Part shown: piece after piece, positions 1 to 17,186 of the stretch
Numbering within the stretch: position 1 is the stretch's first letter
Layout: every line of letters begins with the position of its first letter
Source: Saccharopolyspora galaxeae
GTDB lineage: Bacteria; Actinomycetota; Actinomycetes; Mycobacteriales; Pseudonocardiaceae
DNA: 64,000 bases
Reading direction: 5' to 3'
NCBI RefSeq assembly: GCF_016526145.1
Contig: NZ_JADDUE010000010.1
Location: 211,940 to 275,939 of the forward strand
The notes under the pieces: model-generated
The model's database searches: none
What the model was told of the DNA's origin: nothing
The model's input: only the letters and a program-made list of their open reading frames with translations
Made by a program: the position numbers and the translations under genes

Positions 1-183
1 AACCTCGTCCAATACCGGATTTTTCTCGCCCAACAGGCTCGCTGCGGTGGCACGCACGACACCCGCCAAACTGGACGCCGGCAGCCGGTCCGCCTCCACA
101 GTGTCGTGTGCACCCTCGCCGCCCTGCCCGCTGGCCACGCGGAACGGCGAGTGGAACGTAATCTCGAAATCAAGCCGGGTCAT
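1..183 (-). CDS. RAMP-superfamily Cas protein (Csm3/Cmr4-like), 5' part only
   Basis: The gene starts at 183 and runs off the left edge, so about 60 residues are visible. They begin MTRLDFEITFHSPFRVASGQ and continue with a glycine-rich stretch and then an LPASSLAGVVR segment. This is the usual N-terminus of backbone RAMP subunits of type III complexes: a beta strand, a Gly-rich loop, then the 'LPxSSLxGxxR' helix. Such proteins polymerise along the crRNA, and Csm3/Cmr4 types also cut target RNA. The start lies 14 bp inside the end of the Cas10 gene, so the two are translationally coupled. More cas genes are expected beyond the edge. Which RAMP family it belongs to cannot be settled from the fragment. 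Confidence 0.8.
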   Translation of the reverse strand, partial: MTRLDFEITFHSPFRVASGQGGEGAHDTVEADRLPASSLAGVVRATAASLLGEKNPVLDEV

Positions 184-1501
184 GCCACCACCAGGTCATC
201 CCGAGCGCGTCGGCCAGTGTGAGTTGCTCGCCGAACGGTTCCAGCACCTCCGTGGAGCCAACTCGCGCCGCGTGTGCGGCCACCTCTGCGGAATTCCCGC
301 CGTGCGTGCGGGTCAGGTCGGCGAGCCGCTGACGCGCGGACTGTTTCAGCGCTGCCAAGTCGCTCAGCGCTGTCCGGTAAGTCTGGAAGGTCTGCAGCGT
401 GATCGCGTCACGATCGATTGGTTCGCGTCCATCGCGGGTCGTGTCGTGCCACGCGAGCGACGCGGCTTTGCCGGAGGTTCGGACTTTGGCCCGTCGCAGC
501 AACGATTTCGCGAGCTCGTTGACCTGGAACAGCGGGACCGCGTAGTGGTGGAAAACGATCCCGGCTGACAAGGTCGGAAGGCCCTGGATGCCGGTGGCGC
601 CGGTGTTGACCCCGAGCCGGTCGTGGAACTCGCCGAGCAGCGCTTCAGCGAACTGCCACGCACGGTGCGCGGGCACGCTGACCAGCACGTCGTCGCCGCC
701 GACTAGGTGCGGGACGATCGGCAGCGAAGTGTCGCCGTCACGGCGGATCATGCGGACCGCGGAGGTCAGCGCGTGCCAGGTGGAGTCGTCGATCGCCGCG
801 GGGTAGTCGGTCTTGTCCTTGCGGCGCTTGAGTTTTTGACGCTCGGTAATGAACCTTCCGATCGCGTTTCCGTCCGCATAGACCAGCGCCAGATGGGTCT
901 CGCTACCGTCCAGTCCGGCCAGTTTCGGGAACTCGTCCGGTACTGCGGCGCCAGGATGACCGAGCCGTGCCAACAGTTCCGCCTCGGCGAACGGAACTCG
1001 CTCCTTGCGCTCGGCACGCCCGGCCGCCTCATCGCGAGCCGCGCATTCCACGCACAACGCAGCGTCGTGATCCCGTCTTCCCGATGTGGCGGGCAATGTG
1101 CTGCACCATCCGCACGGACGAGCCGCAGGCCAATCAGCGGCGGGCGCGGGCCATTCCTCGTCGTGCACGGGATCTTGTGCGCGCGCCCGCGTGTAGGTAT
1201 CGCCGCGGAAACCTTTCACCGACAGCGACGCGGCCGGCATCCAGTCCCGCAGGTGCTGAACGACGCGCTGTTCCACCGGTTCTCGATTCCCGTGCAATAT
1301 CAGGGAAACCACGCCGTCGATCCGTCCGGCGGACTCGTTGATCTCGGCGGCGCCGTCCAGTCCGTCGAGGACTTTGCGGACCTCATCAGGCGCGGTAGCT
1401 TGGCTGATCAGCGTCGATCCGCCACGGCGGCCGCGCAGCTTCGGAGTGCGGGTGAGCCACGACTGGATCTGCACCACGCCGATGTCCAGGTAGTCCGTCA
1501 C
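170..1501 (-). CDS. cas10: Cas10-like type III CRISPR protein with intact GGDD motif
   Basis: A 443-residue protein starting at a GTG that overlaps the stop of the upstream RAMP gene (GTGA). It has a CxxC...CxxC zinc-ribbon pair near residues 125-155 (CGWC, CVEC), then the first palm strand with YADGNAIGRF near 205, and a VGGDDVLVSVP motif near 265. GGDD is the metal site used by Cas10 to make cyclic oligoadenylates. No HD-nuclease motif is visible at the N-terminus, and the protein is much shorter than typical Csm1/Cmr2 (700-1000 residues). The expected activity is signalling rather than ssDNA cleavage. This agrees with the SAVED-type effector encoded 2 kb away. Subtype is uncertain; a small III-B/III-D-like variant is possible. 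Confidence 0.85.
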   Translation of the reverse strand: MTDYLDIGVVQIQSWLTRTPKLRGRRGGSTLISQATAPDEVRKVLDGLDGAAEINESAGRIDGVVSLILHGNREPVEQRVVQHLRDWMPAASLSVKGFRGDTYTRARAQDPVHDEEWPAPAADWPAARPCGWCSTLPATSGRRDHDAALCVECAARDEAAGRAERKERVPFAEAELLARLGHPGAAVPDEFPKLAGLDGSETHLALVYADGNAIGRFITERQKLKRRKDKTDYPAAIDDSTWHALTSAVRMIRRDGDTSLPIVPHLVGGDDVLVSVPAHRAWQFAEALLGEFHDRLGVNTGATGIQGLPTLSAGIVFHHYAVPLFQVNELAKSLLRRAKVRTSGKAASLAWHDTTRDGREPIDRDAITLQTFQTYRTALSDLAALKQSARQRLADLTRTHGGNSAEVAAHAARVGSTEVLEPFGEQLTLADALGMTWWWHDPA

Positions 1502-3447
1502 GAGCGGTCCTCGCCCTTCTTGACGATGGGTATCGACTGGTCGGCTTCCTCGGCGAACGGCAGAGTCCGCAGTGGACGGCCGTTGCGTTGTTTACCGGCG
1601 TCGCGGTCGCGATCGGGCGTGGTCTCGGCGCCGGAGGTCTGCTGCCAGAACTCGAATCCGTCGTCGAAGTCCTTGGTTCCGCGCTGGGACCAATCCGCTC
1701 CCGGCGGATACCAGACCTGTTCGGGGTCGTCCTGCGGGCGCAGGACCCGTGCCAGGGCGTTCCAGACATCCCGCACCGCGGGCTCGACGGACTCGCGGAA
1801 AGTTTTGAGCAGTAACGACTTTTCCTCGATGATATCCCGTTCCGGTGCGGAAAGTCCGTAGCGCGCACCGGAAAAGTGCACTTCGCTGGCCTTCGGGTCG
1901 ATCGCCACGCGGCAGGCACCGTAGCCGAGGGGTTTGCCGCCGCCGAGGTGAGTGCGCAGCTGCTCATCTTCGAGTAGGGCGGAAGGTTCCAGCGCAGCGA
2001 TCAGCCCACCGAGCTGCTGCTCATCGATGTCGACGAAAGTGATCGTCGCGGATAATTCCGTGTCCGCGGGAAACGCCTCCGCGGACGAAATGAGTTTCTC
2101 GTTCGTCTGGTGCTGGCGTGCGGCTTCCCGGCCGTTGAGGCGGTCGGTGTGCCAATAGTGCTTGCGGCCACGCAGCTTCCGTGGTGTCGGTTCGTCCGGG
2201 CTGGCTCCCCACTCGCGCAGCGGGGTGTCTTCATACCTGCCGATGTTGGCCGGGTCATTGGTCAGATAGAACTGTCCCGCGCCCGGACTCGGTGCTCCCA
2301 TCGGTGGTAAGGAAAGAGATTTCGGCACGACGTCGTGCTTGGCCACGGCATCACCGAACCGCACATGCCCGCGGTAGGCGCGTTGCGCCGCCCGCTCGTC
2401 CTCCTCGGTGCCGGTCGGGTCGATCGAGCCGAACAAGCGGCAACTCGGGCACAGCTGGTCCGGCCGGTCGCAGGGCAGAAAGCCTGCGGCGCGCTCGCCG
2501 GCGGAGTGTCCGCCGAGGTTGCGCCAGTTCATCGCCAGCCCTACGTGCTCGATCCGGCCGCGATCGTCCAGGTCGACCCAAACCGGCTGGCCCTGCTGGA
2601 GATCTGGCCTCGCCAGGTGCCGTTCGCCGACGGCGTACTGTCGTCCCGGCTCGTTCTTGTCCGGTTTGTGGGTGTACACGATTGGTTCGGTGCGCTGCCC
2701 GTCGGTCTTGTTGAGCTGCGCGGTCCGTTGGTCGTCCGTGTCCTGGACGACCCGCAGGAACTCCGACCACACGTGCTCCGGAACATCGCGCTTTTGATCC
2801 CGGGCCAGTTTCCGGACATGTGCCCGGTACGGGTGCCGGGGGTCGCGGGCACCCGGATCGCTGAGGAACACGACCCATTCCCCGTCGTCGTCCCGTGTCG
2901 CCTGGTCCGGGCGACCGCTTTTGCTGTTCCAGCGCGGGATCTGGAGCCGTTGTCCGGAACGCAGCCCACCGGCGAGGTGGAGATGCTCGAGCAGTTCCTG
3001 GTCCAGCCGGAACTTCTGCGGATCGCCCGGCTCGCACAGACACACCGCGGGTGGTGCGTCGCCCGCGGGCGGCTGGGCGACGACGGCCATGCGGCGGTGT
3101 CTGCGCGACGCGACCACATCTCGGTAGCTCGGCAGGAAGTCGGCGTCGAAAACCCGAAGGCAACTGCCGGTCAGCGTCTCGTGCAGCGACCGGACCGCGC
3201 CCTTCAGCGACGAGCCGGGCACGAACGCGGTGCCGTCCGGGCGCCGTGGCAGCTCGTTGCTCGGCTCGCCATCGGCGTTCTTCGTGCCGTATCCCCTGAT
3301 CAGCAGCGGCGTCCCGGCAGTGATCGTGATGGTTAGTTTTCCGCTCAACAATCGCGGATTTCCCAGGTGCCCGTGCGGCTCTGCCCGCATCGGCGGCTTC
3401 TCCGGAAACGGTACGAACGTGTAGGGATTGATGAAACGGTCGGTCAA
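1498..3447 (-). CDS. Large multi-domain CRISPR RAMP protein (TIGR03986-like)
   Basis: A 649-residue RAMP protein. A first RAMP domain starts around residue 35 (GTPLLIRGYGT), followed by a VPGSSLKGAVRSLHE helix typical of crRNA-backbone subunits. A CPSCRLFGS zinc/loop segment near residue 335 and a C-terminal HLGGGKPLGYGACRV glycine loop near 515 indicate at least a second RAMP fold. The length and the 'CxxCRLFG' plus 'GGGKPLGYG' pairing are those of the long TIGR03986-type RAMP family associated with type III loci. The start is TTG at 3447, chosen because an AGGAGG lies 7 bases upstream. It is the first gene of the leftward operon and overlaps cas10 by 4 bp. Role: scaffold and guide/target binding in the effector complex. 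Confidence 0.85.
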   Translation of the reverse strand: MTDRFINPYTFVPFPEKPPMRAEPHGHLGNPRLLSGKLTITITAGTPLLIRGYGTKNADGEPSNELPRRPDGTAFVPGSSLKGAVRSLHETLTGSCLRVFDADFLPSYRDVVASRRHRRMAVVAQPPAGDAPPAVCLCEPGDPQKFRLDQELLEHLHLAGGLRSGQRLQIPRWNSKSGRPDQATRDDDGEWVVFLSDPGARDPRHPYRAHVRKLARDQKRDVPEHVWSEFLRVVQDTDDQRTAQLNKTDGQRTEPIVYTHKPDKNEPGRQYAVGERHLARPDLQQGQPVWVDLDDRGRIEHVGLAMNWRNLGGHSAGERAAGFLPCDRPDQLCPSCRLFGSIDPTGTEEDERAAQRAYRGHVRFGDAVAKHDVVPKSLSLPPMGAPSPGAGQFYLTNDPANIGRYEDTPLREWGASPDEPTPRKLRGRKHYWHTDRLNGREAARQHQTNEKLISSAEAFPADTELSATITFVDIDEQQLGGLIAALEPSALLEDEQLRTHLGGGKPLGYGACRVAIDPKASEVHFSGARYGLSAPERDIIEEKSLLLKTFRESVEPAVRDVWNALARVLRPQDDPEQVWYPPGADWSQRGTKDFDDGFEFWQQTSGAETTPDRDRDAGKQRNGRPLRTLPFAEEADQSIPIVKKGEDRS

Positions 3448-3540
3448 GCAATGCCTCCTGGGTTCCCCTGCCCGCGACGTGAGGTGAGCGCTCGATCGTG
3501 CGGTAGACTACACGCCGGTTTGAAGCGATCACGGAGAGTC

Positions 3541-4632
3541 ATGCGTAAGGCATTATCGTCGCTGGTCACGGCGCCGAAAAGGGTGGCACTCGCGGATTCT
3601 GCCACTGCGATTGCGGTGGCGTTGGTGACGGCTTCGCTCGCATTGCTGGTGGAAGACCTACTCCCGAAGCCGGGGGAGCGGTACGAGCCGTCCTGGCCAC
3701 GGGTGTCCTTCTTCGCGGTCGTGCTGGTGCTCGTTGTCGTCGGTCGGTACGTCCGTCGTAAGGCGCGTGAGGCGGCTGGAACTTTGGTGAGCATCCAGGT
3801 TCTCGACGAAGGCATGGCTGATCGGACCCGGGGCGAGAACTCTCGGACGGCCGCCCAGAAACGCACCATGTCCATCCGCACGGTCCATCGGTGGCCCGAT
3901 CTGGCCGCGAGTACCGTGGACGGGGTGATCGACGTTGCCGCATTATGCGCGGAAGTGGGCAGGACTGCCGAGTTGCTCATCAACACCGCGCAAGACAACG
4001 AGCGGATCGCGGTAGCGCCGAATCTGCTGTGGCCGATGGCGCTCGGCGTCGGCGGCTACCTCCCACTTGCGGAGTTCGACACCTGTTTCGTCGAACTGTC
4101 CACTCAGGACCGACGTGAATCCGAGGAGTTCGTCCCAGGCCGCAGCACCCTTGAAGGCCTCTCCGATATCGACCTGGCGCCCAGTGAACTGGCGGAGCCG
4201 ACGGGCAACCGAATCGGCGTCGCGGTGACCTTGACTCAGGACGTGCACGCCGGAACGAGCGAAGCCAGACTTCGAGATTTCGGCGTCCGCACGGTCCATC
4301 ACATCGTCCGCCCGGCCGGGGTCGGAACCGCGGAGATGGTCAACGGTCGCCCGCAAATCCACTTCTCCGGAGCGGAGCTGCACGTTCTCGCCAGTGTTGT
4401 GGCCGCGGGACTTGCGAAGATCAAACAATCATGTGGTGAGCGGGAACTGGTCGTTACCGCGCAGATGCCGAAGACGGTCGCGCTCGCAGCCGGTTGGTAC
4501 TTGGCGCAACTGGGCCTGAACTTCTACCGGGGGACTTACCTGTTGCACTACACACCGCAGGACGACGTGAGTAGCCCGATGCGTGTCAAGGAGTCGCACG
4601 ACCCGCGCCCGTTGAACTCCGAGTCGTCGTGA
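3541..4632 (+). CDS. Two-TM protein with SAVED-like C-terminal domain (putative CRISPR-linked membrane effector)
   Basis: 363 residues from ATG 3541, with a GGAGAG ribosome site just upstream; an earlier in-frame start would read back into the divergent RAMP gene. Two hydrophobic segments (about residues 15-40 and 58-75) make a hairpin anchor. The remainder is soluble and ends with a segment near residues 295-340 (LVVTAQMPKTVALAAGWYLA, then FYRGTYLLHY) resembling the terminal part of SAVED domains, which sense cyclic oligonucleotides in CBASS and some type III CRISPR systems. It is divergent from the Cas10 operon, only 93 bp away. I infer a membrane effector opened or activated by Cas10-made cyclic oligoadenylate. 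The SAVED assignment rests on pattern recognition, not an alignment. Confidence 0.6.
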   Translation: MRKALSSLVTAPKRVALADSATAIAVALVTASLALLVEDLLPKPGERYEPSWPRVSFFAVVLVLVVVGRYVRRKAREAAGTLVSIQVLDEGMADRTRGENSRTAAQKRTMSIRTVHRWPDLAASTVDGVIDVAALCAEVGRTAELLINTAQDNERIAVAPNLLWPMALGVGGYLPLAEFDTCFVELSTQDRRESEEFVPGRSTLEGLSDIDLAPSELAEPTGNRIGVAVTLTQDVHAGTSEARLRDFGVRTVHHIVRPAGVGTAEMVNGRPQIHFSGAELHVLASVVAAGLAKIKQSCGERELVVTAQMPKTVALAAGWYLAQLGLNFYRGTYLLHYTPQDDVSSPMRVKESHDPRPLNSESS

Positions 4633-4638
4633 GGTCTT

Positions 4639-5352
4639 GTGTCCGACATCGCGGGCTCCGGCTGCCGACTGCTGACGTTGGCGCTGCCCGAAGGAATCAG
4701 GATCGCGCCACGCCGCGCGGGCATGGTGGCTGCTCTGCTGCGTAAGGCCGTGATGAGCCGGGTTGGCGACCCGCTGCCGCCGGAGATTTCCGGGCATGGA
4801 GCGCAGGATTCGCCGCACGTGGCCTACTTGCCGATGCTGGACGCGGGGCGCGCGGGCGCGAGCGGACAGGTCACCGGAGTCGGAGTGCTGAGCCCGCCCG
4901 GTCGTGCTGACATCGCGGAGTCGATTCGCGATGCGCTGCTGATCGACCAACCGTTCACATTGGACTTTCGCGGCACGCGGCTGCGATTCCGTTTCCCAGC
5001 ACCGGCCGAGATTTCTCTCGAATCGTCTACTTGGTGCGCATCCGCCCGAGTCTGGACGACCGTGACGCCCATCGTGTTGAACCGTTTCCCCGGGCGAGGC
5101 AAGGTAGCCGCCGAGCTGGCACGCACGTGTGTCCGCATGGGACTCGGCGAACCAGCCGCGATCACGGTCGATCGCGACCCACTAACGGAAGGCGGAGTCG
5201 CCCTCGGCCCGGCGGACCTGCCCCGGCGCGAGCGCACTCCGCGCCCCTTCTCCCACGCGACCATCGAATTCCCGGACCCCATCGAGGGCCCACTAATCCT
5301 CGGAGCACAACGCTACCTCGGCATGGGCCTATGCCTTCCGGTCAAGCAGTGA
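4639..5352 (+). CDS. Cas6-like / C-terminal Csb2-type crRNA-processing protein
   Basis: 237 residues from a GTG six bases after the SAVED gene, so the two form an operon. The C-terminus carries FSHATIEFPDPIEGPLILGA followed by QRYLGMGLCLP. This 'SHAxIxFPxPVxGPL..G..R..GLGLxxP' signature ends type I-G/I-U Csb2 (Cas5-Cas6 fusion, GSU0054 family) and gives the G-rich loop of Cas6. Full Csb2 is about twice as long; only the Cas6-like half is present here. Placed immediately before array 1 and convergent with it, it is the obvious candidate to cut the 36-nt hairpin repeat into crRNAs for the type III complex. Catalytic residues cannot be assigned confidently. Confidence 0.7.
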   Translation: MSDIAGSGCRLLTLALPEGIRIAPRRAGMVAALLRKAVMSRVGDPLPPEISGHGAQDSPHVAYLPMLDAGRAGASGQVTGVGVLSPPGRADIAESIRDALLIDQPFTLDFRGTRLRFRFPAPAEISLESSTWCASARVWTTVTPIVLNRFPGRGKVAAELARTCVRMGLGEPAAITVDRDPLTEGGVALGPADLPRRERTPRPFSHATIEFPDPIEGPLILGAQRYLGMGLCLPVKQ

Positions 5353-5415: not shown

Positions 5416-6187
5416 CATTCGCGAACGACCGACTCGAGGAGCCGGTGACAGGCGCTGACAGTCGCTAAAGAAGATCCATCAGAGCTGCCGCAGTGAGGGC
5501 CGGCTCGAAGAGCCGGTGACAGGCCGTCGCGTACGCCATGGGCAAGCTCGACGCGCGGCCGCAATGAGGACCGGCTCGAAGAGCCGGTGACAGCGGGCTC
5601 AACCGCATCCGCTGACCACATCAGCCACCAAGCAGCCGCAATGAGGACCGGCTCGAAGAGCCGGTGACAGACTCCTGGATGACTACGACCTGGTGTTGGT
5701 GGATACGCCGCAATGAGGACCGGCTCGAAGAGCCGGTGACAGCGGCGAGACGACGTTGAAGAACGCCGGTCGGGACGTGAGCCGCAATGAGGACCGGCTC
5801 GAAGAGCCGGTGACAGCCGGTGGTGTGCGAGATCGAAACGGAAGCCCTGCTCGCCGCAATGAGGACCGGCTCGAAGAGCCGGTGACAGGGCCGGGGCGCC
5901 ACTCACGTCGCGGGAGGATTCCGCGCCGCAATGAGGACCGGCTCGAAGAGCCGGTGACAGCGGCCGCGAGCGGAATGCCCGCGTTGAGCAGGAACACCGA
6001 GCCGCAATGAGGACCGGCTCGAAGAGCCGGTGACAGCAGGCCGAAGAACCTCCGGGGCTGACGCTTCCGCAGTGGAAGCCGCAATGAGGACCGGCTCGAA
6101 GAGCCGGTGACAGCCGTCGTGCAGCTTCGGCTGGTCGGTATCCACGGACTGGCCGCAATGAGGACCGGCTCGAAGAGCCGGTGACAG
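5416..6187 (-). CRISPR. CRISPR array 1 (12 repeats, 11 spacers; transcribed leftward)
   Basis: Twelve 36-bp repeats start at 5416 (decayed), 5487, 5558, 5635, 5707, 5781, 5853, 5925, 6001, 6078 and 6152 in register, plus spacers of 35-41 bp. Counting the recognisable units gives eleven clear or near-clear repeats with the 5416 unit as the degenerate leader-distal end; one unit at most is debatable. In the RNA sense each repeat begins CTGTCACCGGCTC and ends CATTGCGGC. An 8-bp perfect stem (ACCGGCTC with GAGCCGGT) closes a TTC triloop, which suits Cas6 recognition. Decay at the left and the conserved leader on the right both say transcription and spacer acquisition proceed from the right side. 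Confidence 0.97.
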
Positions 6188-6281
6188 GGCAGCCCGGAAA
6201 AGGGGCCCATGACCTGCGTTTTCAAAGATCATCGCGAGCGGCGGCCGATGGAGATCGCGCCGCCCGGCAGCATCGATCTTA
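6188..6281 (-). promoter_or_regulatory. Leader and promoter of CRISPR array 1
   Basis: This stretch abuts the youngest repeat. It contains a 41-bp block (6218-6258) that recurs perfectly, inverted, in the leader of array 2 (11384-11424). A TAAGAT box in the leftward sense (6276-6281) lies exactly 88 bp from the repeat, the same distance as in array 2. I read it as the -10 element of the array promoter; the conserved core may serve Cas1-Cas2 integration. The rest of the gap to 6417 shows nothing recognisable. Confidence 0.75.
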
Positions 6282-6417
6282 CCTCACGCCAACACCCGCC
6301 CCGACCTGCGCAAACGGTCCGCGAGCGGCTACGCCTGAAAGTCTCGGAACCGGACCGCTCGCACGAACCGGGTGCGATCCCGAAGAGGGGCGCACCCGAT
6401 TCGTGGTCGGCGTCAGC

Positions 6418-8142
6418 TCAAGCCGCTCTTGGCGGGTAGTGCCGATAGCCGACCGCCACGCGAGGCGCATACGCCACGGGCAGGTGCACCCGTTCGCAGA
6501 GTCCGCTCACGGCAGCCAGCTCTTCGGCGTCCACTTTGTACTGGTCTTCTTCTAGTGGAGTGACCGAGTTCAGCCATGGAGGTCCGAGTCCGAGGAACTC
6601 GAAGCGCGGAGTTCGCGGCATCCCTGCGGCCGGCTCCGGTCCGGTCGGCAGTTCGCCGTCATCCTCGTCCGCGGCCGGGGCTGCGTCGGCCAGCGCTTGC
6701 CGGAATGCTTCCTGCAACGCCGGATGGTCCGGCACGAGGATTGCGGCGGGCAGCACGGTGGCACGTGCACGTTCAGTTCCGGTGATCCGCATCGCGCGGG
6801 CGGTGACCTGCGAGATGAACAGGGGAGCGGTCACGTTCGCCGCATAAGCGATCGTGGAGACGTGCGCGCAATCGAACCCTTCGGTGACCATCCGGACCGC
6901 GACGATCCCGCATGAGTTCGGTTCCGCCGCGGCAGACCGGAGTGTTCGCAAGGCTTCTGGTTCGTCGGAGGTGACCAGCCGAGCGAAGTTCCGTCCGGTG
7001 ACGCGGTTCAGTGCGAGCGCGGCACGCCGTGCGACCTGTTGCGTCGGAGCGACGAACAGCAGCTTCAGTGGTTCCGCGTACTCGATCGCGGCCAACTGGT
7101 TCTCCAGCAGCCGGACCGCTTCGGCGACGAAACCGCGCAGCCACTCGTCCGAGGTGCACGCCTGTAGCAGCACCATGTTGCTTTGCGGATCGTCCAGATC
7201 TGCGATCTGGGCCCGAGTTTCCCGCTGGTGGTTGACGTCGACGAACCGCGCCCATCCTGTGTAGGCGAAGAGATCGACCGGACGCAGCAACTTCTTGTCG
7301 ATCAGGTCGCGCGAGGAGACCGAGCAGTCGGCCACTGCCTGCAACTTCGGCCTACCGTCGACGAGCACCCGTTCGTAGCGCACGGTGGAGATGCGACGCT
7401 TGGGGCTGGAGCGGAACAACGTCCCGGTCATGTTCAGCACAGCGGCAGCGTGGATGTCCTTGTCCACCACGTTGCCGATCATGGTTTGCACTGCGGATCC
7501 CCAGGACGCATCGGTCGCGACATGATGTACCTCGTCCAGCACCACCAGCGTCCGCTTGCGCCGCAAGCGCACCGAGTGGGCTCCGGCCGAGTTCTGCACC
7601 GACTGGTAGGTCACGATGATTCCGGGCCGGGAGCGTGTCTCGATGATCCCTCCCGCAGGGTTGCTGTCCAGATCAATCCTCAGTTCGGCCAGGGCGCGGC
7701 GCCATTGCTCGACGAGCGCGGTGTTCGGCACGATCACGACCATCCGCTCGGCATATCCGGCCTCGCGGAGCGACTTGAACACGGATGCCGCGAACACCGT
7801 CTTCCCGGCGGCTCCGGCGGCTTGCAACGTGGCAGAGCCTTCGTAGAAGATCCGCTCCAAAATCACGGGAAGGGCCTGGGCTTGCCACTCCCGCAAGCGT
7901 AGCCCGTCGAACGGTTCGGCATCGCGTCCACCGAGCCGGAGGTTGCAGCGGGCGCACCACGCTTGCATGTTCTCAAGTTCGGTTGGTCCGCCGTTGCACG
8001 TGGCGACCAAGTGTGCGGCGTGCCAGTCGGGTCCGAGGTCGGCGCCGCAGCGCTGGCACCGCCCGTCCGCCCGTTCGTACAGAAGTCGACGTTCGCGCAG
8101 AGACACGCGCCGTTGCGGTGGCTTGTCGCCATGTTCGTCCAT
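6418..8142 (-). CDS. HNH nuclease fused to SF2 (DEAD/DEAH-type) helicase
   Basis: 574 residues. Residues about 28-70 form an HNH finger: CQRCG, then WHAAHLVATCNGG, an asparagine (ENMQ) and a closing CARCN, with both Cys pairs and the central His visible. The helicase core follows: AAGAAGKTVFA (Walker A) near 110, LDEVHH (motif II) near 200, MTGTLF (motif III), LLFVAPTQQ (motif IV), VTEGFDCAHV (motif V) and QVTARAMRI (motif VI). There is no HD domain, so this is not an ordinary Cas3. It lies downstream of the DUF5343-like gene (56 bp gap) with an AGAAAGG ribosome site, inside the two-array CRISPR locus. It could be a Cas3 substitute or a nested independent defence enzyme that unwinds and nicks DNA. 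The domains are clear; the function is inferred. Confidence 0.85.
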   Translation of the reverse strand: MDEHGDKPPQRRVSLRERRLLYERADGRCQRCGADLGPDWHAAHLVATCNGGPTELENMQAWCARCNLRLGGRDAEPFDGLRLREWQAQALPVILERIFYEGSATLQAAGAAGKTVFAASVFKSLREAGYAERMVVIVPNTALVEQWRRALAELRIDLDSNPAGGIIETRSRPGIIVTYQSVQNSAGAHSVRLRRKRTLVVLDEVHHVATDASWGSAVQTMIGNVVDKDIHAAAVLNMTGTLFRSSPKRRISTVRYERVLVDGRPKLQAVADCSVSSRDLIDKKLLRPVDLFAYTGWARFVDVNHQRETRAQIADLDDPQSNMVLLQACTSDEWLRGFVAEAVRLLENQLAAIEYAEPLKLLFVAPTQQVARRAALALNRVTGRNFARLVTSDEPEALRTLRSAAAEPNSCGIVAVRMVTEGFDCAHVSTIAYAANVTAPLFISQVTARAMRITGTERARATVLPAAILVPDHPALQEAFRQALADAAPAADEDDGELPTGPEPAAGMPRTPRFEFLGLGPPWLNSVTPLEEDQYKVDAEELAAVSGLCERVHLPVAYAPRVAVGYRHYPPRAA

Positions 8143-8198
8143 GGCCTTTCTTCTTTCGCTGCGAGCGGGTCCCCCGTCGTCACGGAGGACCCTGGGTG

Positions 8199-8930
8199 TT
8201 ACTGATCTTCGGAGCCCTCATCGGGTCCGGAAGCTTCTTCGTCTGCGTGCTTCGCCTGGTAGTCACGCAGCGCGTCGCTGATGCCGAAGACGAAGGCTCT
8301 GTCCTCATCGGACATGTGGAGGAAGTCCGCTTCCAGGGTCACGGCGATGCGCCCGACACCCGATGCAAGCTTGACCTCCAGCACCGATTTGTTCTCCGCG
8401 CTCTGCGATTTCGCGCGAGTGGCGGACTTGGCGGCAGGGCGGCTGCGCCGGCGCTGCCTGGGCGCGGCAGCAGCTGGGGTGGGCATCCCTTTGGTCCATT
8501 CGGGACTGAGCGGGATACCTGCCAGCTCCGCTGCTTGCAAGAAGAAGTTGATCGCTCGGTTGCGGGTGTCCCCTTCTTGCCCGTAGATTTCACGCCAGGT
8601 GCTGTTCAGCTGCCCTGTGGTGGCGTGCATCTTCCCCATTTCCACGATGGGCTCATAGTGCTCGTGCAGCTGTTCTCCGATGATCCGTGGCCGGGAGTCC
8701 GGGTCGTAGACGAGTTCGCGCAGTCGTCCGGTAGGTCGGTCTTGATCATCGACGAGATCGAACTGCCGCAGCATTCCCAAGAAGCTCGTCTGCGTGGTGC
8801 CGGACATCCACTTCAGGTAGCTGCGATCGATCACCGCTGGCAGTGTGTCCTGGCTGGCCATGTGCTCCCAAGCACCGGTAAAGCTGCGCCAGGACAAGTA
8901 TGGAGGGATGAACGATTCCGCCTTGGTCAT
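8199..8930 (-). CDS. DUF5343-like protein, probable partner of the HNH-helicase
   Basis: 243 residues with a strong GGAGGT ribosome site. The N-terminal 140 residues (LPAVIDRSYLKWMSGTTQTS ... FDLVDDQDRPTGRL, then RPRIIGEQLHEHYEPI) have the pattern of DUF5343, a helical domain of unknown function often found near defence genes. A low-complexity Arg/Ala/Pro linker (about 155-185) joins it to a short acidic beta-rich tail ending EASGPDEGSEDQ. The basic linker and acidic tail suggest nucleic-acid and partner contacts. It is upstream of, and probably co-transcribed with, the HNH-helicase. 257 bp separate it from cas2, so it may have its own promoter there. No enzymatic motif is visible. Confidence 0.65.
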   Translation of the reverse strand: MTKAESFIPPYLSWRSFTGAWEHMASQDTLPAVIDRSYLKWMSGTTQTSFLGMLRQFDLVDDQDRPTGRLRELVYDPDSRPRIIGEQLHEHYEPIVEMGKMHATTGQLNSTWREIYGQEGDTRNRAINFFLQAAELAGIPLSPEWTKGMPTPAAAAPRQRRRSRPAAKSATRAKSQSAENKSVLEVKLASGVGRIAVTLEADFLHMSDEDRAFVFGISDALRDYQAKHADEEASGPDEGSEDQ

Positions 8931-9187
8931 GGCAGTACCTCCTGTTCCAGAGTTGTCGACGTGTTTCGCTCTGCGGCGCGATCGATGGAGACGGCCGTAA
9001 GAGCTGGACGTGGTAGTCGAAGAGCAGCGGATGCTCGCTCGCCCGACCGTCCGTTGGCGCCTGGGGAGGAGTCGTCAACGTAGCCACGTCTCGTGGTGCG
9101 GCCCAGACGAGGCAGCGTCCGGGACGCGGTCAGTCGCCGGCGCGGAGGCGTGTCACGAGAGAACGGTGCCATCGGGATATCTCCGCC

Positions 9188-9475
9188 TCAAACGACGTGC
9201 GGCCCGGACCGCGGCCACGGACGTTGCTGGCCGAGGATGTTGATCGGCACCGTGCTTTCCGGTCGCCCGAGGTCGACGAACAGCACTCGATCCTGACCGG
9301 TATCGATGACCTGCTGCAGCTCTACCCGCAAATCTGCTAGGTCCGCTTTGGACAGTTCGCAGCAGAACACCGAGAACTGGATTCGATCGCCATACCGCTC
9401 CACGATCTTCGCGACGCGCGGTAGCCGGTGTTCGTCGCGGATGTCGTAGGCCACCAGGTAACGATGCCGTGGCAT
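9188..9475 (-). CDS. cas2: CRISPR adaptation nuclease subunit Cas2
   Basis: 95 residues with the ferredoxin-like Cas2 fold: the first strand RYLVAYDIRDEHR carries the conserved Asp after YD, followed by the RVAKIVERYGDRIQFSVFCC helix-strand unit and RVLFVDLG near the C-terminus. Length is typical. Cas2 dimerises between two Cas1 dimers during spacer integration. The gene begins 6 bp after the Cas4-Cas1 gene, so the two are one operon. The last 20 residues (Pro/Gly/Trp-rich) are likely disordered. Confidence 0.95.
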   Translation of the reverse strand: MPRHRYLVAYDIRDEHRLPRVAKIVERYGDRIQFSVFCCELSKADLADLRVELQQVIDTGQDRVLFVDLGRPESTVPINILGQQRPWPRSGPHVV

Positions 9476-9481
9476 TCGGAA

Positions 9482-11128
9482 TCACCGGCTGGTGAAGGGT
9501 GTGTACTGCGGAATCTCGCCGAGCAGGTACGCGGCGAACAAGCGTGCCTGCACCTCCAGCGCTCGCCGATAGGTGATCCGGTAGCCGAAGATCGGATGCC
9601 GCACCTGCGTGGCGAGCCGTCGCTCGTAAGCACCGATGACCTTGCGTCGTCCCGGTTTGGTCAGTGCCACGGCGGTCGGCGTCACCTCGAAAACCGTCGC
9701 ATCGGCCTGCCGGTTGTTGATCAAAGTTAGCGCGGTCGAATCCCCGATCAATGGCCGGAATTCTTCAGCCAGGTCGAGTGCCAGGGCAGGACGCCCATAA
9801 CGGGGCCGGTGGTAGAGACCGAAATACGGGTCGAGCCCGAGGGCGTAACAAGCCACGGTCAAGTCTTTGATCAGCAGGGTGTACAAGTACGACAGCAGGC
9901 AGCTCACCGGGTCGCGGGGCGGCCGCCGAGTACGGCCCGTCTGATCGAATGACGGGCCAGGCAGGCGGTGATCACAACGGAATGCGGTGGGGAGCGCCCC
10001 GAAATAGGTCTGCCCGGCGGCGCCCTCGATGCCGAGCAGCGTGTCGATGCCGTCCGCCTTGCCTGCTTGACGAACCGCCTCGCCCAGCCGCGCCCGAGCA
10101 TTCTCCGCAGGCGGGGCGTTGCGGCGCAGCATGGTTCGGCAGTTGCGGATCTTGCCCAGCACAACGTTTCGTGCGCACGACAAAGCCTGGTCCGGCGAGG
10201 CCGTGTACTGGCGCCGCCGAACCTCCACATGCTTGCCGGCGCCCGGCACGCCGACGGCTTTCAGCCATCCACCGGTCGAGGTCCACACCACGGGGCTGCT
10301 TTGCTCGGCCAGCGCATGGATCGCCTGGGTCGTGACTTGGACCGGTCCGGACGCCACCAGATGGAGCACATCGCGCAGGCGCATCGACAACAGCTCGGTA
10401 CTGTCATGGGTCACCACGAGGTGACCATTACGGATCCCGACAGAGCTTCCCGGTTCGGTGGCATACAGCGGAAAACGGTCCGGATCGCGCGCCAGTAGAC
10501 GTCGTGGCGCAGTATTGTCGCGCGCGGAGAGTTCGTTGATCTCGTCCGGCATGCAGACCTGCAGCAGTGCGCAGCGCGGGCAGCGGTCGCTGTGTCGCAG
10601 CGGTGGCGGCGGTTCGGATTGATCGGCAACTGTCTGCGCGGCTCGCAAAGCAGCTCGGAGCTCATGTTCGGCCGCAGAAGTCCATTGCACCCGTTTACGA
10701 CGACGCGCCCGGTCGTACCAGATCCAGCCGTGATCGCAGTTGTATCCATGCCGGCGTAGCAACGAAATCTGCAGCAGAACCTGGGTCCGGTCGGTCGCCC
10801 ACGGGTTGCCGTCAGGGGCCGGTGCGCCCAGCCGGAACTCCACCGGGCAGGTCTCGGATGCGCCGTGCTCCACGACATCGCACACGGCGGTCACCCCGAG
10901 ATCTGCCGACGAGAGCCGAACCGAACGGGCGCGCCAATCTGTCGATCGAATGGTGTCCGCGGTGGGCATGGCCGATCCGGGACGGTCGACGACGCGGTGC
11001 ACGTGACGGCCGAGGCGGGTGTCGTCGGAATCTTGCCAGTGGCCTTGAACCTGCTCGAGATGGAACAGCCTGGGGCAGTACACGAACTTGCTCAACGCGC
11101 GAGCTGGAATGAAAGACTCGGGTTCCAT
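9482..11128 (-). CDS. cas4-cas1: Cas4-Cas1 fusion protein
   Basis: 548 residues if begun at ATG 11128, which is preceded by GGGGAAAG at good spacing; an upstream in-frame ATG at 11170 would add 14 residues. Residues 1-200 are Cas4: YCPRLF near the start and a C-terminal cluster CPRCALLQVC give the four iron-sulphur cysteines. Residues about 215-548 are Cas1, with the catalytic Glu in LLGIEGAAGQTYF, then the His and acidic pair in GLYHRPRYGRPALALDLAEE. Cas4 trims and orients prespacers by PAM while Cas1 integrates them. Such fusions are characteristic of type I-G loci. Here the partners are type III genes, which points to module exchange. Confidence 0.95.
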   Translation of the reverse strand: MEPESFIPARALSKFVYCPRLFHLEQVQGHWQDSDDTRLGRHVHRVVDRPGSAMPTADTIRSTDWRARSVRLSSADLGVTAVCDVVEHGASETCPVEFRLGAPAPDGNPWATDRTQVLLQISLLRRHGYNCDHGWIWYDRARRRKRVQWTSAAEHELRAALRAAQTVADQSEPPPPLRHSDRCPRCALLQVCMPDEINELSARDNTAPRRLLARDPDRFPLYATEPGSSVGIRNGHLVVTHDSTELLSMRLRDVLHLVASGPVQVTTQAIHALAEQSSPVVWTSTGGWLKAVGVPGAGKHVEVRRRQYTASPDQALSCARNVVLGKIRNCRTMLRRNAPPAENARARLGEAVRQAGKADGIDTLLGIEGAAGQTYFGALPTAFRCDHRLPGPSFDQTGRTRRPPRDPVSCLLSYLYTLLIKDLTVACYALGLDPYFGLYHRPRYGRPALALDLAEEFRPLIGDSTALTLINNRQADATVFEVTPTAVALTKPGRRKVIGAYERRLATQVRHPIFGYRITYRRALEVQARLFAAYLLGEIPQYTPFTSR

Positions 11129-11360
11129 GGTGCTTTCCCCGACGTGATTGCTCTTGTGCCCTCCCAGCATCGCGCGGACGGCATGCCCCTGGGGTTCGCA
11201 CTTTCGGGTGGATCGGACCGCTGCGCTTGCGTGACGCGGATTCCTGCGTCTTGCGTGGCGGGTGAGCTGGAAGTGGTCCCGCGAGCGGTCCGGTTCCGAT
11301 GTCCGCAGGCGTAACCGCTCGCATAAAGTCTGTGCAGGTCAACCGGTCAGCGGGATAAGC

Positions 11361-11454
11361 TAAGATCGACACGGTCGGCTGGAGCGATCTCCATCGGCCG
11401 CCGCTCGCGATGATCTTTGAAAACCCAGGTCAGAGGCCTCGTCTTCGGGATGCC
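11361..11454 (+). promoter_or_regulatory. Leader and promoter of CRISPR array 2
   Basis: It begins with TAAGATCGAC (putative -10 at 11361-11366) and contains the 41-bp core (11384-11424) identical, in inverted orientation, to the leader of array 1. From the TAAGAT box to the first repeat is 88 bp, as in array 1. Bases 11129-11360 between this and the Cas4-Cas1 start show no gene. Confidence 0.75.
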
Positions 11455-11856
11455 CTGTCACCGGCTCCTCGAGCCGGTCCCCATTGCGGCCGCGATCGCT
11501 CCAACAACCTCGGCATCGTCGCGATCCTGTCACCGGCTCCTCGAGCCGGTCCCCATTGCGGCCAGCCGCGCTCGCAGGTGTGCCGGACCGCGGCCGCGGC
11601 TGTCACCGGCTCCTCGAGCCGGTCCCCATTGCGGCACTGCGGCGCGGGACACCGTCTGCTCAGCGCCGTCGACTGTCACCGGCTCCTCGAGCCGGTCCCC
11701 ATTGCGGCGGGCGCGGGTCGTCGCCGGGGTTGAGCTGGTCTCGGTAGCGGCTGTCACCGGCTCCTCGATCCGGTCCCCATTGCGGCTGCACGATGTTGAC
11801 CACACCGACCAGCCCGGCCACTGTCACCGGCTCCTCGAGTCGGTCCTCATTTCGGC
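11455..11856 (+). CRISPR. CRISPR array 2 (6 repeats, 5 spacers; transcribed rightward)
   Basis: 36-bp repeats start at 11455, 11527, 11600, 11673, 11751 and 11821; spacers are 36, 37, 37, 42 and 34 bp. The repeat equals that of array 1 in RNA sense except for two T-to-C changes, one in the hairpin triloop and one near the 3' end. The 8-bp stem is untouched. The unit at 11751 has one stem change and the unit at 11821 several, marking the leader-distal end. The orientation is opposite to array 1, with the leader toward the adaptation genes. Confidence 0.97.
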
Positions 11857-11924
11857 ACGGCGACACTGGCCACGAACAGCACGGTGGACAGCGGCCGGCC
11901 GGTTCTCCGGGCGGGTGGCTGTTC

Positions 11925-11954
11925 GTATCCGACGATGTCTCCATCGTCGGATAC
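11925..11954. terminator. Perfect 13-bp hairpin between array 2 and a DeoR gene
   Basis: GTATCCGACGATG pairs perfectly with CATCGTCGGATAC across a TCTC tetraloop. No T-run follows. It sits between array 2 (rightward) and the convergent DeoR gene, so a bidirectional terminator is the simplest reading. Confidence 0.7.
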
Positions 11955-11986
11955 CGGGCGGTGGAAAGCTGTTGCGCGGCAAGCGT

Positions 11987-12775
11987 TCAAGCGCGTGCGG
12001 GCACCGTGGTCCGCACCTCAACCCCGCACTTCTCCGCCGCCCGAAGTTCCTTGCGCGACACCGCGTCATCGGTGATCAGGGTCTGATATCCGCTCAGATC
12101 CCCATGCGCGTACGTAGCCGTGCGGCCGAACTTGCCGCCGTCGACGGCCAGGATCGAGCGGCCGGCGGCGGCCACGAAGCCTTCCTTGTTCTCCGCGTAC
12201 TCCCGCACCGGGTGGGACAACCCGCCATTGTGGACACACGTGGCGGTCAGGAATGCGACGTCCACGCGGAAGCGGTCGAGCTGGCGCAGTACCTCGGGTC
12301 CCGCGCAGGACTCGAATTCCGGGTGGACGCGGTCGCCGAGCAGCGTGACGGTCGCGGACTCGGACAGCAGGTAGCTCACCCGCAGCGAGTTCGTGACGAC
12401 CTGCAGCTGCTCCACTTCGGACAGTGCCCGGACGAACGGGAAAAGCGTGCTGCCGCAGTCGATGAGCACGGTGTCGCCGGGTGCGACGAGGTCGAGCAGC
12501 GGCTCGGCGATGGCCGCCTTGAACTCCGCGTTGACGTGTTCGCGCAGGCGCAGCGAACTCTCCCGCTGCACGGTGCTGAACGCCGCCGCCACCCCGCGCC
12601 GCTTCTGCAGCAGGTTGCGGGACTGGAGGTCGTCGAGGTCGCGGTGCGCCGTCATCACGCTGACCCCGAGGCGGTGCGCGAGTTGGTCGATGCGGACCTC
12701 CCCGGCGCCGGTGACCAGGCGCAACGCCTCCTGTCGACGCTGCTCGACCTCGGCGGCCGACTTCCGGACCGGCAT
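11987..12775 (-). CDS. DeoR/GlpR-family transcriptional regulator
   Basis: 262 residues from ATG 12775, chosen for its GGGAGG ribosome site; an ORF extension to 12814 would lose it. The N-terminal helix-turn-helix is about residues 20-65 (IDQLAHRLGVSVMTAHRDLD), with His where most relatives have Arg in 'TxRRDL'. The C-terminal DeoR sensor, a ribose-isomerase-like fold, begins with PLLDLVAPGDTVLIDCGSTL and includes VVTNSLRVSYLL and ILAVDGGKFG. Such regulators bind sugar phosphates. It is divergent from the polyol-type MFS gene, with 193 bp between them, and probably controls it. Confidence 0.9.
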   Translation of the reverse strand: MPVRKSAAEVEQRRQEALRLVTGAGEVRIDQLAHRLGVSVMTAHRDLDDLQSRNLLQKRRGVAAAFSTVQRESSLRLREHVNAEFKAAIAEPLLDLVAPGDTVLIDCGSTLFPFVRALSEVEQLQVVTNSLRVSYLLSESATVTLLGDRVHPEFESCAGPEVLRQLDRFRVDVAFLTATCVHNGGLSHPVREYAENKEGFVAAAGRSILAVDGGKFGRTATYAHGDLSGYQTLITDDAVSRKELRAAEKCGVEVRTTVPARA

Positions 12776-14914: not shown

Positions 14915-15085
14915 CGGTTAGGGTGCTCGGCGAGCCAGTCGTGCCCACGTGGCCAGGGAATCCGGTCGGAAGCCGGAACTGACGCGCAGCGGTGGGGGTG
15001 ATGGGCGGGGCGATGCCACTGGATCCGTTCCGGGAAGGCGGCCCCGTCCGGTGCGAACCCGAGTCCGAAGACCTGCTGGCTCCCC
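14915..15085 (+). ncRNA. Cobalamin (AdoCbl) riboswitch
   Basis: The core landmarks are all present in order: AGGGAATCCGG (14955-14965) followed by AGCCGGAACTGACGCGCAG, the GCCACTGG box at 15015-15022, CGGGAAGGCGG at 15031-15041, and GTCCGAAGACCTGCTGG at 15063-15079. These are the conserved pieces of the B12-box riboswitch. It precedes a lipoprotein-permease-ATPase operon, which is then most probably a cobalamin importer shut off by adenosylcobalamin. Exact ends are approximate. A helix over the ribosome site of the lipoprotein gene (about 15140-15156) would be the expression platform; I did not fold it. Confidence 0.88.
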
Positions 15086-15156
15086 GGGCCGCAGGCGGTG
15101 CCGGGTCGTGGCCGACCGGGCTTCGCGCATGGGCCCGGGGTGAGGATCGCAAAGCA

Positions 15157-16167
15157 GTGTTCGCTGTTCGCGCCCGCGCGTTGCGCGCCGGGCTGGTGGT
15201 GCTGGCCGCCGTTGTGCTCGCTTCCTGTTCCGCACCCGCTCCGAAAGAGGACGCCGGAGGCGGGAAAACGCTGCGCAACTGCGGAACCGACGTCACTGTG
15301 GACGGTCCGCCGCAGCGCGCGGTGAGCCTGAACCAGTCCACCACCGAGATCATGCTCTCGCTCGGGCTGGCCGATCGGATGGTGGGCACGGCGACCTGGA
15401 CCGATCCGGTGGATCCGGCGTTGGCGCAGGCCAACGCGACGGTGCCGCGGCTCGCCGAGAACAATCCGTCGTACGAGGCGGTGCTGGGCACCGAGCCGGA
15501 CATCGTGCTCGGGGCCTATCAAGCCGTGTTCACCGACGAAGGCGTCGCCGATCGCGAGCGGTTCGGCGAACTCGGCGTGCCCACATATCTGTCGCCGAGC
15601 AACTGCTTCCCGGAGGCCGCGCCGCTGGCCGAACCGGTCGAGCTCGACGACATCTACCGGGAAGTGCAGGAGATCGCCGACATCTTCGGCGTTCCGGAAC
15701 GCGGGCGCGCGCTCACCGCGCAGCTGCGCGAACGGGTGGCCGCCGCGCGGCAGCGGGTCGACCGGTTGGAGTCCACCAAGGACACATCGGTGCTGTTCTG
15801 GTTCGCCCGCACGGAATCGCCCTACGTGGCGGGATCCACCGGTGCACCGGCGATCATGGCCAGGGAGCTGGGCGTGCGCAACGCCTACGACGACGCGCGG
15901 TCGATGTGGCCGCAAGTGTCCTGGGAGGACATCCTCGCCCGCGATCCCGACCTGCTCGTGCTCGGCGACCTGACTCGCGACGGAGAAGGCGACGGCCTTG
16001 CCGCGAAACGGGATTTCCTGCGCGCCGACCCGGCGGTGTCCCGGCTGGCCGCGGTGCGCGACGAGCGGTCGATGGGCATGACCGGCACCGAGCTCAACGT
16101 CAGCATCCGCACTGTGCAAGGGATCGAGCGGCTCGCGGACAAACTCGTCGAACTGGACCGGCGTTGA
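15157..16167 (+). CDS. btuF: Cobalamin-type ABC transporter substrate-binding lipoprotein
   Basis: 336 residues from GTG 15157, preceded by a GAGGATC element. An upstream extension in frame reads into the riboswitch and is rejected. The first 27 residues are a lipoprotein signal (hydrophobic AGLVVLAAVVLASC, lipobox LASC). The body is a periplasmic-binding fold of the FecB/BtuF class: VSLNQSTTEIMLSLGLADRM, EPDIVLGAYQ, VLFWFARTESPYVAGSTG and DPDLLVLGDL. The family carries B12 or ferric siderophores; the riboswitch argues for B12 or a related corrinoid. The permease starts inside its stop codon. Confidence 0.85.
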   Translation: MFAVRARALRAGLVVLAAVVLASCSAPAPKEDAGGGKTLRNCGTDVTVDGPPQRAVSLNQSTTEIMLSLGLADRMVGTATWTDPVDPALAQANATVPRLAENNPSYEAVLGTEPDIVLGAYQAVFTDEGVADRERFGELGVPTYLSPSNCFPEAAPLAEPVELDDIYREVQEIADIFGVPERGRALTAQLRERVAAARQRVDRLESTKDTSVLFWFARTESPYVAGSTGAPAIMARELGVRNAYDDARSMWPQVSWEDILARDPDLLVLGDLTRDGEGDGLAAKRDFLRADPAVSRLAAVRDERSMGMTGTELNVSIRTVQGIERLADKLVELDRR

Positions 16168-17186
16168 CGGCGAACCGGGCACCGGCGGCGGCCATCGTCC
16201 TCGCCGGAGTGCCGATCCTGTTGCTGTCGGCCGCGATCGCGGTGACGCTCGGGCCCGCGCAGCTCACCGTCGCGGACGTCGCCGGTGTGGTCGGCAGCAA
16301 GCTCGGGCTCGCCGAGACCGGCGTTTCCCGCATCGGGCAGGGCATCGTGTGGCAGCTGCGGTTGCCGCGCGCGGTGCTGGCCGCGATCTGCGGAGCCGGG
16401 CTCGGAGTCTGCGGGGCGGTACTGCAGTCGCTGCTGCGCAACCCATTGGCCGACCCGTTCCTGTTAGGAGTGTCGGCCGGAGCCTCGACCGGGGCGGTCT
16501 CGGTGGTCGTGCTCGGTCTCGGGGCCGGGGCGGTCGGTCTCACCGCCGGGGCGTTCGCCGGGGCGCTGGTCGCGTTCGCGCTGGTGATGTTGCTGGCGTC
16601 GGCCGCAGGCGGCGCGGCCGGGCACATGGTGCTGGCCGGAGTCGCCGGGACGCAGCTGTTCTCCGCGCTGACCTCGTACATCGTGATCACCTCCGCGGAC
16701 GCCGACCAGACCCGCGGCGTGCTCTTCTGGCTGCTGGGCTCGCTTTCCGGTGCGCGCTGGGATGATGTGCTGCTGGCGGGCGTGGTGTGCGCGGTGTGCC
16801 TCGTGCTGTGCTTGGCGAAAGCGGGCTCGCTGGACGCCTTCGCGTTCGGCCAGGACGCCGCCGCCACTCTCGGAGTCCACGTTGGACGGCTGCGGGCGCT
16901 GCTGCTGGTGGTGACCGCGCTGCTGGCCGCGACCTTGGTCGCAGCGGCGGGAGCGATCGGCTTCGTCGGGCTGGTGCTGCCGCAGGCGGCCCGGCTGCTG
17001 GTCGGACCGCGGCACCGCGCGCTGCTGCCGGTGACCGCGGTGCTCGGCGCGATCCTGCTGGTGTGGGTGGACGTGCTGGCCACCACGATCGCCGCGCCGC
17101 AGGAGGTTCCGGTCGGCGTGGTCACCGCATTGGTCGGGGTGCCTGCCTTCGCGGTCCTGCTGGTCCGGCGGGGGAGGGTGTCGTGA
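16164..17186 (+). CDS. btuC: FecCD-family ABC permease (B12 importer)
   Basis: 340 residues from a TTG that overlaps the lipoprotein stop (TTGA), so it is translationally coupled. About ten hydrophobic helices. The segments QLRLPRAVLAAICGAGLGVC, LQSLLRNPLADPFLLGVSAG and AGAIGFVGLVLPQAARLLVG are diagnostic of FecCD/BtuC permeases, the last being the coupling-helix region that meets the ATPase. It forms the membrane channel with its neighbours. Confidence 0.92.
   Translation: MTANRAPAAAIVLAGVPILLLSAAIAVTLGPAQLTVADVAGVVGSKLGLAETGVSRIGQGIVWQLRLPRAVLAAICGAGLGVCGAVLQSLLRNPLADPFLLGVSAGASTGAVSVVVLGLGAGAVGLTAGAFAGALVAFALVMLLASAAGGAAGHMVLAGVAGTQLFSALTSYIVITSADADQTRGVLFWLLGSLSGARWDDVLLAGVVCAVCLVLCLAKAGSLDAFAFGQDAAATLGVHVGRLRALLLVVTALLAATLVAAAGAIGFVGLVLPQAARLLVGPRHRALLPVTAVLGAILLVWVDVLATTIAAPQEVPVGVVTALVGVPAFAVLLVRRGRVS

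Follow-up and report, generated by a model that had tools for sequence, protein, structure and literature searches.

A helicase-nuclease and DUF5343 gene pair that follows one Cas4-Cas1/Cas2 clade in type III CRISPR loci

The four-gene row and its two unusual proteins

The DNA analysed here (the window) is a stretch of 64,000 nucleotides from Saccharopolyspora galaxeae (contig NZ_JADDUE010000010.1, positions 211,940 to 275,939), and our attention is given to two neighbouring genes of its CRISPR (clustered regularly interspaced short palindromic repeats) locus, one encoding an HNH nuclease fused to a superfamily 2 (SF2) helicase and the other a DUF5343 protein. As the open reading frames and profile matches reveal, four genes follow each other on the minus strand: a Cas4-Cas1 fusion of I-G type (9482-11170; NF049935, 674.8 bits against a cut-off of 560), Cas2 (9188-9475), the DUF5343 gene (8199-8930, 243 residues) and the HNH-helicase gene (6418-8142, 574 residues). 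The pair, genes three and four of this likely operon, as far as the gene layout tells, thus lies directly 3' of Cas4-Cas1 and Cas2, and the row is flanked by two CRISPR arrays found by repeat detection, namely array B (5427-6188, minus strand, spacers of 35-41 nt) and array C (11455-11856, plus strand, 6 repeats, spacers of 34-42 nt). According to a reading of the printed sequences by eye, the array B leader (6189-6417, minus strand) begins straight after the helicase stop codon, and that of array C (11171-11454, plus strand) abuts the Cas4-Cas1 gene and is divergent from it. A further array with an identical repeat is located upstream of the window (in locus L009), and by the same reading the leaders of all three arrays are similar. 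The first-pass annotation of this DNA had called both reading frames, had put the pair between Cas2 and an array and had described it as nested between two arrays, all of which agrees with the present mapping.

The larger protein has an HNH nuclease domain at residues 29-72 (7927-8058, minus strand), delimited from PF01844 and from conservation, and an SF2 helicase core of RadD/ResIII-like type at residues 80-495 (6658-7905, minus strand), placed by Pfam and fold comparison. The Pfam matches exceed their cut-offs, with PF01844 at residues 29-71 (25.8 bits, cut-off 21.4) and ResIII PF04851 at residues 81-243 (71.7 bits, cut-off 22.5), and DEAD PF00270 is matched as well. When 52 sequences including the window protein are aligned, C29, C32, H44, C63 and C66 of the HNH region are invariant, and so are K114/T115 of motif I, D203/E204/H206, T239-G240-T241, and Q445, R449 and R452 of motif VI; N67 is conserved in 51 of the 52 and N58 in 34. 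As had been proposed, the HNH finger and the helicase motifs stand in one 574-residue chain. The window's own motif I (7798-7818, residues 109-115) reads AGAAGKT; in the form APGAGKT, the Pro is found in 50/52 and the Gly in 51/52 sequences. The nearest solved fold of the core is RadD, and XPB and RadD are its relatives by sequence profile; despite this nearest fold, the protein scores 26 bits against the 720 of the RadD NCBIfam equivalog. No HD domain is reported by Pfam at E 0.1, which together with the HNH domain upholds the earlier statement that the protein is not Cas3.

The DUF5343 assignment, also proposed earlier for the gene ahead of the helicase on the same strand, is confirmed by PF17278 at residues 42-139 (30.7 bits, cut-off 27). 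No close solved relative was found by sequence (E 1) or by Foldseek, and a weak match to a BrxA-like fold was seen only in a second structural comparison; a DNA-binding, BrxA-like protein is thus possible from the predicted model. Such a fold, the leader starting right after the helicase gene and the similar leaders read by eye at three arrays are consistent with a pair acting at the array itself, where DUF5343 would bind the leader and the helicase would open or repair the integration site. We regard this as improbable, since an HNH nuclease has no obvious need there and related Cas4-Cas1-Cas2 modules work without the pair.

Association of the pair with one adaptation clade

To describe the distribution of the pair, 249 genomes of the bacterial family and 394 genomes at class level were searched, with gene order taken from a simple purpose-written gene caller. 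Helicase matches at E <= 1e-40 occur in 10/249 family genomes, and at class level in 4/394, namely the window's own genome and three distant ones. All six loci having an intact helicase near cas genes present the same order of cas4-cas1, cas2, DUF5343 and HNH-helicase; these are the window, L001-L004 from Saccharopolyspora, and L021 from genome G012, whose DUF5343 protein is identical to one of Saccharopolyspora erythraea NRRL 2338. The intergenic gaps in these rows are from -11 to 60 nt, with the exception of the cas2-DUF5343 gap in the window (257 nt).

The Cas4g-Cas1g profile identifies 23 places in 22/249 genomes. Five of them carry the pair (G000, G012, G063, G185 and G232), every one with a type III effector, and these five are the places where Cas4-Cas1 of the clade described below accompanies such an effector. 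The 18 others without the pair consist of 12 of I-G type, one with Cas12b, three where a reverse transcriptase (RT)-Cas1 accompanies a III-D-like effector, and two unclassified. Here the I-G-type label comes from BLAST clustering with some genes undetected in places, Cas3g and Csx17 being NCBIfam-confirmed for L051 only, and RT plus Cas1 is demonstrated for L066, with L067 and L068 assigned by similarity. The RT-Cas1 fusion (L066:8174-10045, also L067 and L068) occurs with the same III-D-like effector as that of the window. At class level, Cas4g-Cas1g matches are present in 14/394 genomes; among the 13 besides our own, the five loci fetched have no pair, and the remaining eight genomes are not among the helicase matches, which apparently come from the identical draw.

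The tree of Cas4-Cas1 (28 rows) groups the pair-linked rows into one clade (support 98/94), within which III-D and III-B loci are intermixed, and its sister is the Cas12b-linked Cas4-Cas1. The latter stands, together with its Cas2 and without the pair, next to a Cas12b (V-B) gene at L059:5141-10975. The pair tracks one Cas4-Cas1/Cas2 clade, and not the effector.

The effector side was followed through the TIGR03986-type protein of the window, which matches 23/249 genomes and marks the III-D-like effector. Where this effector stands with Cas4-Cas1 of the pair clade, the pair is present in 4/4 genomes; where it stands without it, in 0/17 (Fisher p = 1.7e-4, relatedness uncorrected, with G247 and G126 excluded). 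None of the 17 genomes is among the helicase matches, and no Cas4-Cas1 of the pair clade was found in them by the profile search or the tree. Three of them have RT-Cas1, in G039 the contig of the effector also carries an I-G system, and the other 13 show no Cas4-Cas1 or RT-Cas1 match at E 1e-8 within stretches of 10.8 to 19.9 kb, so that a cas1 farther away is possible there. As for the two excluded genomes, G126 has a partial effector match and a helicase (L006/L017) 59 kb away that is fused to a partner of another kind; in G247 the effector is kept, Cas4-Cas1 and the helicase are reduced to fragments, and neither Cas2 nor DUF5343 gives a match. The pair in G247 has decayed along with Cas4-Cas1, and the effector was retained.

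Moreover, comparison of closely related loci reveals exchanges of the effector. L003 (III-D) and L004 (III-B) share 94.7% DNA identity from 6796 to 12151, covering cas4-cas1 through the helicase, and the high-identity stretch reaches roughly from one array to the other; L001 (III-D) and L002 (III-B) share 87.8% over 5.0 kb. The III-B evidence is Cmr4 confirmed in L002 and Cmr1 in L004, the other Cmr genes of L004 being identified via BLAST to L002. Thus the pair stays with Cas4-Cas1-Cas2 through two III-D/III-B effector swaps. The ratio of nonsynonymous to synonymous substitution rates is 0 to 0.20 for DUF5343 and the helicase and 0.12-0.14 for Cas4-Cas1, with few changes in L003/L004 and no synonymous change in their Cas2; these values show purifying selection on the pair. 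Altogether, a component of the adaptation module would be expected to behave in this way: it shares a row with cas1 and cas2 in six of six intact loci, is retained through both swaps, and is lost jointly with them in G247.

These observations bear directly on the suggestion of the first-pass annotation that the pair could be a Cas3-like effector. A type III interference nuclease, shredding DNA like Cas3 and compensating for the missing HD domain of Cas10, would suit the window, where no HD is seen within residues 1-50 of Cas10, and HNH-helicase fusions of type IV-A2 do work in interference according to the available text of PMC12669027 and PMC10910872. However, of the 21 classified genomes with the III-D-like effector, 17 lack the pair, and the pair also occurs alongside III-B effectors. 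As the pair is not tied to the effector, being absent in 17/17 genomes that have it without this Cas4-Cas1 clade and kept with Cas4-Cas1-Cas2 under III-B, the Cas3-like effector is rejected, and an interference role of any such kind seems very unlikely to us. The likeness to Cas3 is that an SF2 helicase and a nuclease are joined within a cas locus; the difference is that the pair's helicase has HNH and not HD (the Cas3g of L051 does show HD), follows the adaptation genes, and has no I-G effector in its loci, with the pair at 0/12 I-G-type places and hence no Cascade-type effector. CasDinG-HNH of type IV-A2 is likewise a CRISPR-linked fusion of helicase and HNH, yet as described in the accessible parts of PMC10910872 and PMC12669027 its HNH is C-terminal, its helicase is of the DinG type and its function lies in interference, whereas the window protein has its HNH N-terminal (residues 29-71) on a RadD/ResIII-type core (ResIII) behind cas2; in PADLOC, three relatives match typeIV_DinG, but only weakly.

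A possible role in prespacer supply and the origin of the pair

Since the pair follows the acquisition genes and not the interference genes, we place it in spacer acquisition, and we lean, with some reserve, towards an accessory that makes or processes DNA prespacers. The generation of prespacers needs a DNA motor and a nuclease, and the helicase protein has both domains. In such a scenario, DUF5343, with its predicted BrxA-like fold, would bring the SF2 motor onto the DNA of an invader or direct it there; the motor would move along the DNA and the HNH domain would cut it, and the pieces would be trimmed by Cas4-Cas1-Cas2 and integrated at the leader ends present on either side of the row. The pair would then serve its adaptation module as RecBCD/AddAB serve others, or as Cas3 does in type I priming. 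RecBCD is a superfamily 1 helicase with a PD-(D/E)XK nuclease. It is reported, in the text available of PMC9048733 and PMC9699676, that RecBCD/AddAB supply DNA pieces to Cas1-Cas2 in some systems, so the likeness is that of a helicase-nuclease providing prespacer DNA, a role which for the pair we infer by analogy; the difference is that those are housekeeping enzymes encoded elsewhere, and the pair is located behind cas2 and has a RadD-like core. More specifically, though only tentatively, the pair may be a dedicated CRISPR-encoded prespacer factory, in which a DUF5343-guided HNH-helicase derived from a mobile-element two-gene unit substitutes for RecBCD or Cas3 in a type III system, as an alternative to the RT-Cas1 modules found with the same effector.

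The supply of DNA prespacers in type III systems, especially without Cas3, is poorly understood, and a helicase-nuclease beside the adaptation genes would make this step genetically separable and open to testing. The III-D-like effector, which is found with RT-Cas1, with Cas4-Cas1 and the pair, or with none nearby, provides a natural experiment in this respect. Other genes tied to Cas1/Cas2 modules, among them RNase H and DNA polymerases, are treated in section 14 of PMC10910872; they resemble the pair as extra genes of adaptation modules, and HNH-helicase with DUF5343 is not named in the main text available. No published description of the pair was found in the literature searched, the 188-module supplement of PMC10910872 not being readable; it is undescribed in the accessible portions of PMC10910872, PMC12669027, PMC11229360, PMC12839542, PMC9048733, PMC12231136 and PMC9699676. 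The literature search found no paper mentioning DUF5343 or PDC-M34.

The relatives of the helicase outside CRISPR loci point to its origin. In the midpoint-rooted helicase tree (127 rows), the CRISPR-linked helicases (546-574 residues as called) nest within a larger family. From a protein search, which covers proteins and not their neighbour genes, 120 of 210 relatives are listed; among these, nine assigned to the CRISPR clade have 564-579 residues, and the other 110 have a median of 689. We collected 33 helicase loci outside CRISPR, namely 24 from a scan of viral contigs, one from a phage record and 8 from bacterial genomes, and none of them matches the cas references at E 1e-5. The repeat detector flagged short repeats in two of these loci, L089 and L104. 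A different partner gene lies downstream of the helicase in 25/33, many of them in viral contigs; its profile was built from 12 loci, and 13 more also have it, one as a fusion (L006). The eight without it are L020, L106-L108 and L111-L114, the helicase matches of the last four being partial or weak. The gene of L020, sister to that of the window, has no partner and lies next to transposase pieces. The phage record, Saccharomonospora phage PIS 136 (L090:5109-6833), has a full-length HNH-helicase relative of 26% identity followed by the downstream partner. A plasmid search gave one helicase relative (31.7%). The idea that the unit sits in viral contigs like cargo was considered and dropped, its orientation to the neighbours being mixed in the 14 loci checked.

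DUF5343 is found in none of the 33 loci, and in the six CRISPR loci DUF5343 is upstream of the helicase and the downstream partner is absent in every case. A comparison of the two profiles gives a homology probability of 0.2%, so that DUF5343 and the downstream partner are not detectably related, and we take the difference for a replacement and not for an altered gene order. Because the CRISPR helicases nest inside the partner-bearing family, the partner was presumably lost in the CRISPR lineage. Our best reading of these sequences is that a CRISPR adaptation module took up the helicase-nuclease on a single occasion, which suggests that a mobile-element helicase-nuclease was turned into a part of the memory machinery.

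The main rival to a prespacer-making accessory is an autonomous anti-phage unit, with DUF5343 as sensor and the HNH-helicase as effector, carried behind cas2 between recombining arrays. Helicase relatives without CRISPR are mostly two-gene units with another partner (25/33), many in viral contigs, DUF5343 elsewhere adjoins HEPN-type genes, and the high-identity block of L003/L004 spans about array to array, all of which would agree with such a unit. However, 0/33 helicase loci without cas genes contain DUF5343, the pair is tight behind cas2 (an 11-nt overlap in L003/L004), it is kept across deep divergence with CRISPR-linked helicases of ~53-58% identity to the window's, and it decayed jointly with cas4-cas1 in G247. 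We therefore hold the autonomous unit to be unlikely, although more credible than action at the array or in interference. The first-pass annotation had offered an unrelated two-gene defence unit; this agrees with a likely origin, considering the relatives with other partners, the viral contigs and the defence contexts of DUF5343, but in its present form the pair lies directly after cas2 in 6/6 intact loci. The accompanying doubt, that homologues might be mostly outside CRISPR or defence islands, is answered both ways: many are outside, yet the window gene's clade is CRISPR-linked except for the orphan L020.

The neighbourhood of DUF5343 had also been proposed for checking. PF17278 matches are present in 9/249 family genomes, and 4 of the nine are CRISPR pairs, the pair of G012 falling below the threshold and so not being counted; in G113 and G163 DUF5343 stands beside HEPN-type genes. 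Neighbours were worked out for the CRISPR pairs and for these two; the other three matches are in G153, G093 and G201. DUF5343 in G113 adjoins HEPN_Swt1 (PADLOC PDC-M34A/B); in G163 it forms a gene pair with Hypoth_ymh, which also matches PADLOC Aga_HEPN, inside a DISARM locus (L164:1078-12001, with DrmD, DrmMI and DrmA). The PADLOC candidate PDC-M34 resembles the pair in having DUF5343 as gene 1 of a two-gene unit (G113); it differs in its partner, HEPN and not HNH-helicase, and in that no CRISPR link is seen within 12 kb. The window's DUF5343 scores 24 bits to PDC-M34A with Cas2 and the HNH-helicase as neighbours, and the PADLOC scan of the window gave no PDC-M34B match. No DUF5343 relatives were found in the plasmid search.

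The surrounding type III locus

The effector genes of the window comprise a small Cas10 (170-1501, minus strand), which by profile matches and sequence inspection has GGDD and no HD in residues 1-50, and a type III RAMP (repeat-associated mysterious protein) gene of TIGR03986 (1498-3447, minus strand; 248 bits, cut-off 161); of the further RAMP genes, some lie outside the window, in the upstream locus L009. The effector is III-D-like according to these profiles, in which a Csx10-like protein reaches 64.9 bits, below the cut-off of 177. Divergent from the effector operon is a SAVED/CARF membrane accessory gene (3367-4632, plus strand; PADLOC PDLC01166, SAVED6-SAVED_TM), and such a SAVED-TM/CARF gene is present in 9/15 III-D-like loci examined. 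Profile matches identify the next gene (4639-5352, plus strand) as a free-standing C-terminal half of the type I-G Csb2 (Cas5-Cas6), which is probably the Cas6 that processes CRISPR RNA. Cas10, the RAMP genes, the SAVED-TM gene and the Csb2 half therefore mark the locus as type III, and its adaptation module is type I-G-like. The locus is of type I-G on the adaptation side by its Cas4g-Cas1g score; on the effector side Cas3g and Csx17 genes are not in the window locus, where the effector is Cas10/RAMP.

The repeats of the window match Rfam CRISPR-DR20. Phage matches were sought for the spacers of array B and of one L021 array, and none was found; array A gave a single match, a weak one, in a Burkholderia phage (83.7%, E 0.04), and in the other L021 array (L021:4500-5700) a stretch matches Gordonia phages in their RecA-like genes, at 86% and over 44 nt of the phage record. 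No protospacer-adjacent motif is derivable from the protospacer matches of array A, array B and the two L021 arrays. Farther along the window, a cobalamin riboswitch (14919-15094, 77 bits) is located ahead of open reading frames at 14992-17186, which we take from their sequence to resemble a cobalamin/metal ATP-binding cassette transporter.
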